Origin: Phormidium tanganyikae FI6-MK23
GTDB lineage: Bacteria; Cyanobacteriota; Cyanobacteriia; Leptolyngbyales; Leptolyngbyaceae
NCBI GenBank assembly: GCA_019359175.1
Contig: JAHHHU010000007.1
Span: 1 to 64,000 of the forward strand
DNA length: 64,000 nt
Direction of reading: 5' to 3'
Part shown: positions 263 to 49,061 of the stretch, piece by piece
How positions within the stretch are numbered: position 1 is the first letter of the stretch
How the letters are laid out: each line of letters begins with the position of its first letter
Position numbers and translations under genes: made by a program
Notes under the pieces: model-generated
Database searches by the model: none
Told to the model about the DNA's origin: nothing
The model's input: the letters and a program-made list of their open reading frames with translations, nothing else

Positions 263-1246
263 TCATCGTTGAGAATCTGAGGATTGGAAGGGGGGCGTTT
301 CTGGCTTGGGGTCGTCTGAGTCGTCGGAACGGGTTTGACTTGAGCGAGGGACGTTTCGCAGATCGCCCACAATAAGAGTAAGTTCAACAGTGAGAATTTG
401 ATTATTCTGACCTTTCCACTTAACCCGCTGAACTTTAGCATTGTAGGCACTCTTGACGATCGATAAGTTTGTAAGCTGTGTTTCTAGATTCTGTAATTGC
501 ACATTCACTTGAGCGAGTTGGAATGTTCTATCTCGCTCTTGCTGCTCATATTCCTGTAACTGTCGCTGATATTCTTGCTGCTGGCGTTCAATATCGATAC
601 TACGCTTACTCACTTCTAATGGATGCTCGTATTGCCGATATTGATAATTCTCTCCAGCGCGATCGAGTTTTGCCTGTGAGAGTTCTAATTCTGCTTTGGC
701 TTGTTTAACATCGCGCTCCCGCTGCCGTAACTTCTCTTGTTCGTGGGGCAGAGTGCTAGGGGAGAGATCATTCGGATTGAAGCCTTGCAGTAAATCGATT
801 TTGCGCTGCTGTCGGTTCCAATTCTGCTCGATTTGTTGCAGGGTGACTTGTTTGCGATCGATTTCTGCCTCTTCCTCTAGAAATGATGGCGTTGGGAGGT
901 TGGCGATGTCTGAGGCGGATTTGGGCGGAAGGGGTTTGATTGGGACTTGTTTGAGTCGATCGAGTTGGATCAGGACTTGGGCTTTTTGCGCTTCTAGTCG
1001 TTGTCGTTCACGAGTGCGATCGCTTAAAACTTGACCCATAACAACGACATCGCCTTCACGGACTTTCAAATCCTCCGGCGCGGATAGGCTCAGTTCTAGA
1101 ATAAAGCGCTTGGCTCTGGTGTTGGGAACTGGAGAAGCTGCGGGAGTTGAAACGAGAGAAGGACTTGGGGTAGGAGTTGGGTTCTGTGCTTGGGCGGTAC
1201 AGCTTGCTAGAAGAAGACAGGCTGTGATTATTGTCGATCGATTCAT
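263..1246 (-). CDS. Secreted lipoprotein with coiled coil, HlyD-like adaptor fold
   Basis: About 327 residues. I start at the ATG at 1246 because it directly precedes a lipoprotein signal peptide (MNRSTIITACLLLASC, lipobox Cys at about residue 16); a TTG five codons upstream is less likely. After a Pro/Ser/Thr-rich linker comes a short lipoyl-like segment (DLKVREGDVVVMGQVL), a long Gln/Glu/Arg-rich coiled coil (about residues 75-260), and a return lipoyl-like half (SAYNAKVQRVKWKG). The C-terminus is Ser/Asp/Pro-rich and disordered. This layout is that of a membrane fusion (HlyD-like) protein, with the hairpin between two half-lipoyl motifs. No transporter partner is adjacent, so the exported substrate is unknown. 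It ends 55 bases from the IS end. Confidence 0.7.
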   Translation of the reverse strand: MNRSTIITACLLLASCTAQAQNPTPTPSPSLVSTPAASPVPNTRAKRFILELSLSAPEDLKVREGDVVVMGQVLSDRTRERQRLEAQKAQVLIQLDRLKQVPIKPLPPKSASDIANLPTPSFLEEEAEIDRKQVTLQQIEQNWNRQQRKIDLLQGFNPNDLSPSTLPHEQEKLRQRERDVKQAKAELELSQAKLDRAGENYQYRQYEHPLEVSKRSIDIERQQQEYQRQLQEYEQQERDRTFQLAQVNVQLQNLETQLTNLSIVKSAYNAKVQRVKWKGQNNQILTVELTLIVGDLRNVPRSSQTRSDDSDDPKPETPPFQSSDSQR

Positions 1247-1844
1247 TGAAAACGAGGGCAATCACTTTGGGTTAGTGTGCCCTCGCTGTCGTGTTCATTT
1301 GATTCAACTCAATGCTGGGTGAGCGGATGGCAGATCAACCGAAACGGCTGAAATTACGGGCAGCGCCTCTTCCCTCACTCAGATCGGCTCCTACATTTCA
1401 GGTTTTCTCATCTTTAACACCGTGAGGCAACCTTTTTTAAACTCAAAGGGATCAAGCTGTCATCAAGCCTCTGTAGAGATCGATCGTCTGCTGAGTTCAT
1501 CTCATTTCTGAGTGCTTTGTCTCGAAATATTACGATTCTAGGCTTCTGTTAATAAGTGTTGCGGTCTCTTGATTGACTTGCTAGGGTATGCGTGTTCACT
1601 TGCATTGACTGTTTCTTATCGTTTGGAGTGAGGTGTCTTATGCTTTATCCTGCGCTCACCGCTGACCTCCTTTCCTAAATTCCAAGCGGGTCTGCGACAT
1701 CCACAACGAAATATTGAAGCACTGCGAAATATCGCTTGTCAGTTTTCCATCTCAAAGCACGGATCAAAGACTTACTTCGGTTCTTCCCCCTTATCCATTC
1801 AGCAAAGACTAAGAACCCGGCAGAACCGCAACATTGGAGGCTTT
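1247..1844. other. Gene-free 598-bp stretch between divergent genes
   Basis: This gap lies between the divergent lipoprotein and dehydrogenase genes and must contain both promoters. I see no convincing coding frame, repeat or RNA structure. A good Shine-Dalgarno sequence (TTGGAGG) lies seven bases before the dehydrogenase ATG. Confidence 0.5.
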
Positions 1845-47294: not shown

Positions 47295-47930
47295 CTACTC
47301 GCCTTCTAGCACCGACGGAATTCCCAAAACTGGACAGGGGAACGGAGTACCCAACTGGCGCACCAATGGGTGAGTAGCCGAATCACAGCCCAAGATCAGC
47401 AACGACGCTTTTTCTGCCGCGACAACCTCTTTCAACTCTTTCGCAACGATGCCAAACCGCAAATGAGTTTTGAGCGAACCGCGCCACTCCTCCGCCATAC
47501 AGCGGGCATTCCACAAAATGCGATCGGCTTGCTCAAACAATTCCGCTGTACCAAACTGCGCTTTCGTTGCCGTTTCCAATTCAGCGATCGCAGTTCGACT
47601 GGTGCGCCATTCTCCTTCGGCTTTGATCTCAGCTTTGCGCTTTGCACCCGAATCGAAAACGGGAATGCGGTTCATAATCCCGTCATCAATCACGTACACG
47701 ACTTGAACCGTGACTTGTTTTCCGGTGGCTAGGCGCGTTTGGTGAGCAATCCACAGCGTCAAATCGAGCGCAGTCTGACTGCTGGGTGAATTTGAGTAAC
47801 CAACGACGAGGTTAATCTCGGAATCTTCCGCACCGTTTGAAGCAGGTGCCGGAATAAGAACCATTTTTTGGACAAGATCAGTACGACCGAGCGTTCCTTG
47901 GAGTCGTACCAGCATGGAATGAACGTTCAT
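47295..47930 (-). CDS. Universal stress protein-like, c-di-AMP riboswitch controlled
   Basis: 211 residues with a UspA-like alpha/beta fold: EINLVVGYSNSPSSQTALDLTLWIAHQT (strand 1 and first helix with the substrate loop), VTVQVVYVIDDGI, and AAEKASLLILGCDSATHPLVRQLG near the C-terminus where UspA has the nucleotide-binding Gly loop. The start is the ATG at 47930 (MNVHSMLVRLQ), nine bases after GGAGAGG; a TTG three codons upstream touches the ribosome site. A c-di-AMP aptamer and an SD-hiding hairpin precede it. Confidence 0.82.
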   Translation of the reverse strand: MNVHSMLVRLQGTLGRTDLVQKMVLIPAPASNGAEDSEINLVVGYSNSPSSQTALDLTLWIAHQTRLATGKQVTVQVVYVIDDGIMNRIPVFDSGAKRKAEIKAEGEWRTSRTAIAELETATKAQFGTAELFEQADRILWNARCMAEEWRGSLKTHLRFGIVAKELKEVVAAEKASLLILGCDSATHPLVRQLGTPFPCPVLGIPSVLEGE

Positions 47931-47938
47931 GAGTTTCA

Positions 47939-47969
47939 ACCTCTCCTAACTACACGGGGTGCGAGAGGT
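47939..47969 (-). promoter_or_regulatory. Hairpin sequestering the ribosome binding site
   Basis: On the minus strand ACCTCTC (47969-47963) pairs with GAGAGGT (47945-47939), which includes the Shine-Dalgarno AGGAGAGG of the USP-like gene. It lies between the c-di-AMP aptamer and the start codon and is the likely expression platform for translational control (inference). Confidence 0.6.
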
Positions 47970-47999
47970 GGGTGAGGGAGTTTCGTCCGATCGCGATTG

Positions 48000-48170
48000 G
48001 CGATCGATTCAGTTAGGACACTCAGGGCGGTAATTCGCACGCTGAGCCGTCCTCCCAATGCCGACGGAGTTAGCTGACGGGCTAAGACTGGAAGGTGTCT
48101 TTCTCAAACCGATGTTTGAAATTCGCCCCAAAAATTGGTTCCTCCGCTTTGAGTTTGAGCGATCGATAAT
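48000..48170 (-). ncRNA. c-di-AMP riboswitch (ydaO/yuaA motif)
   Basis: Read on the minus strand, the leader contains AAAGCGGAGGAACCAA and TTGGGGCGAAT (48147-48121), then TTAGCCCGTCAGCTAACTCC (48085-48066), CGTCGGC (48066-48060) and GGGAGG (48056-48051). These are the conserved core elements of the ydaO-yuaA class, which binds cyclic di-AMP. The ends contain complementary CGATCG words (48165-48160 and 48006-48001) that can close the P1 helix. The gene controlled is the USP-like one at 47295-47930. Most members of this class shut expression when c-di-AMP is bound. Confidence 0.88.
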
Positions 48171-48251
48171 GCGACTCAACTCAAATTAGGCGACCCACAG
48201 ATTAAGCTTCCCTAGATGTTCACACAACAGACTTGACGTGAGTTTGGCAAC

Positions 48252-48275
48252 AAAAAACCAGGACTCCTGGCTCAA
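48252..48275 (-). terminator. Terminator upstream of the riboswitch
   Basis: On the minus strand AGCCAGGAGTCCTGG folds into a hairpin (7 pairs with one G-U) followed by six Ts. It would end transcripts from the small membrane protein gene (stop at 48537), separating it from the riboswitch unit. Confidence 0.55.
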
Positions 48276-48536: not shown

Positions 48537-48830
48537 TTAGTGATTCGACAATTGAATTTCATCAGACTGTGATTTTGGAGCCTCCAACATTTGCTGATAA
48601 AGTTTTGCAGCGCGACTAGAGCGCTTGAATTTATCTAAAAGCTCTAAGTAAGCAAACGGGAGAGCAATCACCCAAAATACGCTTGCGATCGCAATCATAA
48701 CGATTGAAATCCGCTGTTCTTGCTGGGTGAGATTATCTCGATCGTGGTGGAAAAATTCGAGCCAGCTAATGAAGAGAACGGGGATGACCGCCACGTAAAA
48801 CAATCCCCCAATCAGTAACAAAACCTGCAT
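48537..48830 (-). CDS. Small two-helix membrane protein
   Basis: About 97 residues from ATG 48830 (MQVLLLIGGLFYVAVIPVLF), with GAGG eleven bases upstream; 48839 is an alternative ATG, and the frame stays open to 48941 without signal. Two membrane helices (first at 1-22, second IVMIAIASVFWVIALPFAYLELL). C-terminal tail is basic then polar. Family not recognised. Confidence 0.65.
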   Translation of the reverse strand: MQVLLLIGGLFYVAVIPVLFISWLEFFHHDRDNLTQQEQRISIVMIAIASVFWVIALPFAYLELLDKFKRSSRAAKLYQQMLEAPKSQSDEIQLSNH

Positions 48831-49061
48831 AGCAACCATTTCCTCAAACTTGCATGATGCCAGGAGCTCAACCGTTTTAGTGTTCCCAGTTTTTCCTGAG
48901 CAAGACGCACCCTCTTTGCCTCCTCTAGAGATGGTACGCAATTCTGTTGACCCTTATTAGCAGGATGACCATATCCCGCAGCATAACGTTACAAGAACGC
49001 GCACTGATACCGAAACACTTTACGTTACGAATGCTACGTGCATATAGCATGGTAACGCATC

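Follow-up and report, generated by a model that had tools for sequence, protein, structure and literature searches.

The 64-kb window analysed here (the whole 64,000-nucleotide stretch of the Phormidium tanganyikae contig) carries, on its minus strand at positions 47295-47930, a divergent universal-stress-protein (USP) gene with an ATG start and a product of 211 amino acids. The universal-stress type of this gene, which had been proposed from the DNA alone, is confirmed by membership in the Pfam family Usp (PF00582; 32.6 bits against a cutoff of 24). A sequence search of solved structures found no relative. An AlphaFold2 model (pLDDT 79.7) has the USP fold, and its top Foldseek matches in the PDB are USPs, among them UspA, TeaD (E-value 7e-6) and, with c-di-AMP bound, the USP domain of KdpD (7ji4; E-value 3e-3). 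Judged from this model, the gene encodes a divergent protein of the UspA fold, which it shares with TeaD and the KdpD domain at a low identity of 13-14%. Alignment of 51 sequences revealed the strongly conserved motifs AHQTRLAT, LWQAR.LAxEWRGS..HLRFG, and GCxSxxHPL. The ATP-binding Gly-rich motif, G-x2-G-x9-G(S/T), is absent from the 51 orthologs as judged by eye, and the conserved C-terminal segment, GCxSxxHPL...FPCPVLGIP, shows no recognizable form of it, which sets the protein apart in the comparison with the USPs TeaD and KdpD.

The sole Rfam match above the gathering threshold in the window lies in the 5' leader of this gene, on the same strand. Model RF00379 (c-di-AMP, ydaO/yuaA) matches positions 48047-48171 with 66.5 bits, against a gathering cutoff of 38, and an E-value of 3.2e-13 (cmscan; model positions 1-134 covered), leaving 117 nt to the ATG at 47930. 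The minus-strand core words of the class, GCGGAGGAACCA (48136-48147), GGGGCGAAT (48121-48129), and GCCCGTCAGCTAAC (48069-48082), lie at the positions named in the original prediction, and the covariance-model search of this strand, recommended there as a check, thus upheld the assignment to the ydaO/yuaA c-di-AMP aptamers. The Rfam alignment starts too late, omitting the sequence GUGGGU-N-GCCUAAU that is conserved in the USP leaders examined. The true 5' edge lies about 27 nt upstream of the start of the match, at 48185-48198, where it reads GUGGGU-C-GCCUAAU (GUGGGU 48193-48198, C, GCC 48189-48191, UAAU) and is kept in USP-type leaders. By its sequence, the segment 48047-48198 is a c-di-AMP riboswitch aptamer of a known class, with the same core and P1 helix as the ydaO/yuaA (kimA) prototype and a score above the curated cutoff; the riboswitch is a real member of that class and ordinary in kind. 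The leader is predicted to bind c-di-AMP; a diadenylate cyclase (DAC) is encoded in the same genome.

Farther upstream, at 48537-48941 on the minus strand, lies a gene for a small hypothetical membrane protein that belongs to no Pfam family above cutoff; in many relatives a homolog immediately precedes the riboswitch-USP unit. A further proposal, that the aptamer is closed by a CGATCG helix, is rejected because this HIP1-type palindrome is ubiquitous in the window (306 copies in 64 kb, about 15 expected) and because the 5' copy (48160-48165) is not conserved, being absent from seven congeners. Two of the palindromes do form a hairpin at 47988-48006 (minus strand), kept with a variable loop in eight congeners, which is a genus-level feature and not a closing helix of the aptamer.

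Distribution of the aptamer among cyanobacteria

RF00379 was found in 75 of 292 cyanobacterial genomes, at 112 sites, both numbers being lower bounds under the stricter filters used. The commonest target class, judged by the first downstream gene, is an NrtB-like ABC permease followed by an NMT1-like binding protein (40 sites). USP orthologs come second with 34 sites and CitMHS/ArsB-type transporters third with 26. Because USP genes make up roughly 30% of the cyanobacterial sites found, the USP family belongs directly in the c-di-AMP regulon. The genome of the window reflects two of these classes, as its second RF00379 copy (G000:C56:3871-4028, in loci L002/L135) stands directly before genes for an NrtB-like ABC permease and an NMT1-like substrate-binding protein.

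A search for this aptamer in front of USP orthologs, likewise suggested by the original prediction, was strongly positive. Among 70 ortholog loci selected independently of the riboswitch, 47 have RF00379 upstream, two of these at a distance of 400-470 nt, and the 47 include all eight members of the genus (the window and seven congeners). Several USP orthologs are entirely without a detectable aptamer (L046, L055, L057, L059, and L207), so losses do occur; no decayed aptamers were detected before the riboswitch-less orthologs at a loose threshold. In locus L053, two divergent RF00379 aptamers, 672-796 (minus strand) and 1141-1282 (plus strand), lie within 350 nt of each other, one before the USP gene and the other facing away.

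Helices between the aptamer and the start codon

The pairings of the leader were compared across 53 unique USP leaders. P1, formed in the window by GCC (48189-48191) and the GGC (48060-48062) within its 3' strand CCGUCGGCA (48059-48067, minus strand), is paired in 53 of 53, with GCU/AGC double changes. Between the aptamer and the platform, a linker hairpin, AGGACGGCUCAG...CUGAGUGUCCU (48015-48053, minus strand), has C-G, G-C, A-U, U-A, or U-G as its fifth pair in different leaders; its covariation counts are biased upward, since the 3' partner was chosen by best match. Just before the gene, ACCUCUC (47963-47969) pairs with GAGAGGU (47939-47945), both on the minus strand, in a 7-bp hairpin that covers the Shine-Dalgarno (SD) sequence, about 9 nt before the ATG at 47930. 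In this hairpin 96.8% of cells are paired, and the third pair is C-G in 34 leaders and U-A in 17, a double change between lineages. Folding of the window leader gives a predicted SD unpaired probability of 0.02. An SD-hiding hairpin at this place had been proposed from the window alone, and it withstands comparison across lineages.

A terminator scan of the window revealed no terminator-like site (with a U-tract) between the aptamer and the ATG. The one intrinsic-terminator-like hairpin with a U-run found (1.6 expected from shuffles) is at 48255-48273 on the minus strand, upstream of the riboswitch; its CCUGGUUUUUUGUUG recurs in most congeners, and it probably ends the preceding gene. An SD pairing conserved with compensatory changes, in the absence of a terminator, is what a translational platform should show, and translation is likely the level of control, as originally predicted, given that the linker is conserved with compensatory changes as well. 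The USP leader is thus a probable translational, SD-sequestering riboswitch platform. In this respect it differs from the ydaO/yuaA (kimA) prototype, which uses intrinsic termination, whereas the window leader has the SD hairpin, no terminator, and the additional helix proposed below.

This new proposal, designated P0, pairs GUGGGU (48193-48198) at the aptamer edge with ACCCAC (47968-47973, minus strand), which abuts the anti-SD strand and overlaps it by two bases. In the P0 register, 91.5% of cells are paired across the 53 unique leaders, compared with 41.8-50.3% in slid registers, and double-sided changes occur in three leaders (L051, L100, and L143). A modest energy test points the same way, the native 5' and 3' segments pairing more stably than permuted ones, with 4.2% of permutations as good. 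In 36 of 63 leaders the 5' segment finds its best partner in the anti-SD flank, compared with 13 for a non-USP consensus segment. Of 49 named loci, 23 bear GUGGG; 21 of these also have ACCCACCUCUC and the other two have near variants, a co-occurrence inflated by the relatedness of the loci. In many lineages P0 hardly varies, so that a simple pair-count permutation is uninformative and part of the support is co-occurrence that shares ancestry. The helix is not seen in the other cyanobacterial RF00379 target classes, which have an AGUC-type sequence in place of GUGGGU and lack the ACCCAC platform. An orphan riboswitch in L064 (about positions 1001-1300) carries the same module as the USP leaders, with GUGGGC, ACCCAC, and an ACCUC/GAGGU hairpin, before an unrelated 67-aa ORF. 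Counting against the mechanism proposed below, some orthologs without the aptamer retain ACCCACCUCUC before the SD (L057 and L207). In these two loci the retention has the look of recent aptamer loss. P0 is best described as a candidate helix between the aptamer edge and the SD hairpin, supported by covariation in the aligned leaders and not proven. Just upstream of GUGGGU, at 48198-48230, TTGTGT-17 nt-TAATCT resembles a weak promoter, its TAATCT kept in most of the genus; because of this position, the transcript may begin almost at the P0 strand.

Proposed mechanism and its alternatives

We propose that the leader of the USP gene would act in cis, as a c-di-AMP riboswitch, on translation initiation. 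Binding of c-di-AMP to the ydaO-type aptamer (48047-48198) would stabilize P1, whereupon GUGGGU, just 5' of P1, would pair with ACCCAC beside the anti-SD strand. P0 would in this way link occupancy of the aptamer to the ACCUCUC/GAGAGGU hairpin over the ribosome-binding site, and the bound state would most likely leave the SD hidden (OFF). That c-di-AMP controls USP translation through P1, P0, and the SD hairpin, most likely as an OFF switch, is in our judgement fairly probable; the coupling of aptamer to SD and the direction of switching are themselves inferred. OFF is favored because characterized c-di-AMP riboswitches are OFF switches (PMC6488665; PMC9960051). For instance, OFF control is described for kdp of Bacillus thuringiensis (PMC6488665), and for the Corynebacterium glutamicum c-di-AMP riboswitch there is evidence of a repressing action on translation (PMC9960051). 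Folding ensembles in which P1 was forced, as a stand-in for the ligand, raise the mean probability of P0 from 0.15 to 0.40 and leave mean SD accessibility at 0.15 (from 0.14), in a folding model without a coaxial stacking, ligand, or pseudoknot term. Individual leaders move both ways; in some, P0 weakens the SD hairpin, an effect that would point to ON.

The C. glutamicum nlpC riboswitch, like that of the window, has no canonical terminator and a proposed action on the ribosome-binding site and translation (PMC9960051). It differs in phylum and target, and in having a hypothesized CTCC/GGAG exchange where the window leader has a dedicated anti-SD hairpin and P0 with covariation. An equivalent exchange could nonetheless be imagined here, with the unliganded aptamer tail GGGAGG (48051-48056) pairing CCUCUC and freeing the SD, ligand releasing CCUCUC to hide it (again OFF), and P0 being secondary. 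The window and many relatives are able to form the six pairs of GGGAGG/CCUCUC, and the equivalent logic has its precedent in C. glutamicum (PMC9960051). In about a dozen leaders (L050, L056, L160, and L172, for example), however, this pair is not kept, a GGAAGG tail coexisting with an unchanged CCUCUC, and the tail bases of GGGAGG are already part of the covarying linker hairpin. We regard such an exchange as doubtful.

The same riboswitch could also run in the ON direction, if stabilized P1 and P0 took the two outer anti-SD bases and the residual 5-bp hairpin then opened. P0 and the full SD hairpin do share two bases in the lineages examined, the SD hairpin weakens with P1 forced in L039, L053, L122, L148, and L160, and a putative exporter as co-target would suit activation at high c-di-AMP. 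Leaders L034, L060, and L163 shift in the opposite direction, and this polarity runs counter to the description of characterized members as OFF switches (PMC9960051, PMC6488665), so that ON is a somewhat unlikely direction. An aptamer acting through transcription, by Rho-dependent or intrinsic termination, with the SD hairpin merely tuning basal translation, is improbable. Termination of transcription is how most characterized members act (PMC6488665), and in a minority of the USP leaders the platform is of another type, in some cases with U-runs (L058); against this, the window has no terminator-like site from aptamer to ATG, and the SD hairpin, which covaries, is the most strongly kept element of the platform. 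That the match is due to chance or to a decayed aptamer, the USP gene being no longer regulated, is very improbable, for although the aptamer has clearly been lost in some orthologs (L046, L055, L057, and L059), here it scores 66.5 bits with intact core words, and the core, linker, P0, and SD hairpin persist in all eight members of the genus.

Proposed transporter partners and probable role of the USP family

In eight genomes of one family, apart from that of the window (L062, L068, L086, L089, L097, L100, L117, and L122), a single riboswitch precedes a USP gene and then, on the same strand, a CitMHS/ArsB-type transporter gene. Because of this shared leader, we take the USP as a probable ion or osmotic regulator, probably a partner or regulator of ion/osmolyte transport. 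The original prediction of a role in stress acclimation is the weaker description; a place for the USP in ion/osmotic homeostasis fits the eight USP-transporter loci better. A USP that regulates transport is known from Halomonas elongata, where TeaD modulates an osmolyte transporter (PMC9006882). The meaning attached to the neighboring psaK gene did not survive comparison, as psaK is absent beside the USP gene at every other ortholog locus fetched; it is a chance neighbor as far as these loci show, and a link to it is rejected.

According to a review, the Synechocystis gene slr0753, for a putative chloride exporter, is regulated by a c-di-AMP riboswitch (PMC10117731). That riboswitch is also a cyanobacterial RF00379 element, and the CitMHS/ArsB-type targets found here are probably of the slr0753 kind, a likeness that we infer for the transporter class as a whole. 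The two targets differ, slr0753 being a putative chloride efflux protein and the target in the window a USP. The genome of the window was rejected as a carrier of slr0753, its sole match being distant (26% identity).

In cyanobacteria, few targets of c-di-AMP have been established, and the review names slr0753 as the one riboswitch target (PMC10117731). The USP gene is a widely conserved target of the c-di-AMP riboswitch that is apparently little documented. We found one characterized case in which this class has been proposed to control translation (PMC9960051), and an SD platform conserved across a lineage would help to clarify the way in which the aptamer acts on translation. A concrete hypothesis for USP function comes, in turn, from the eight USP-transporter pairs. 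On a proposition that we hold to be evenly balanced, the cyanobacterial USP leaders may form a distinct translational subclass with a long-range P0 (GUGGGU/ACCCAC), whose target, a divergent USP family partnering a CitMHS/ArsB-type ion transporter, would lie at the core of a c-di-AMP ion/osmotic regulon.
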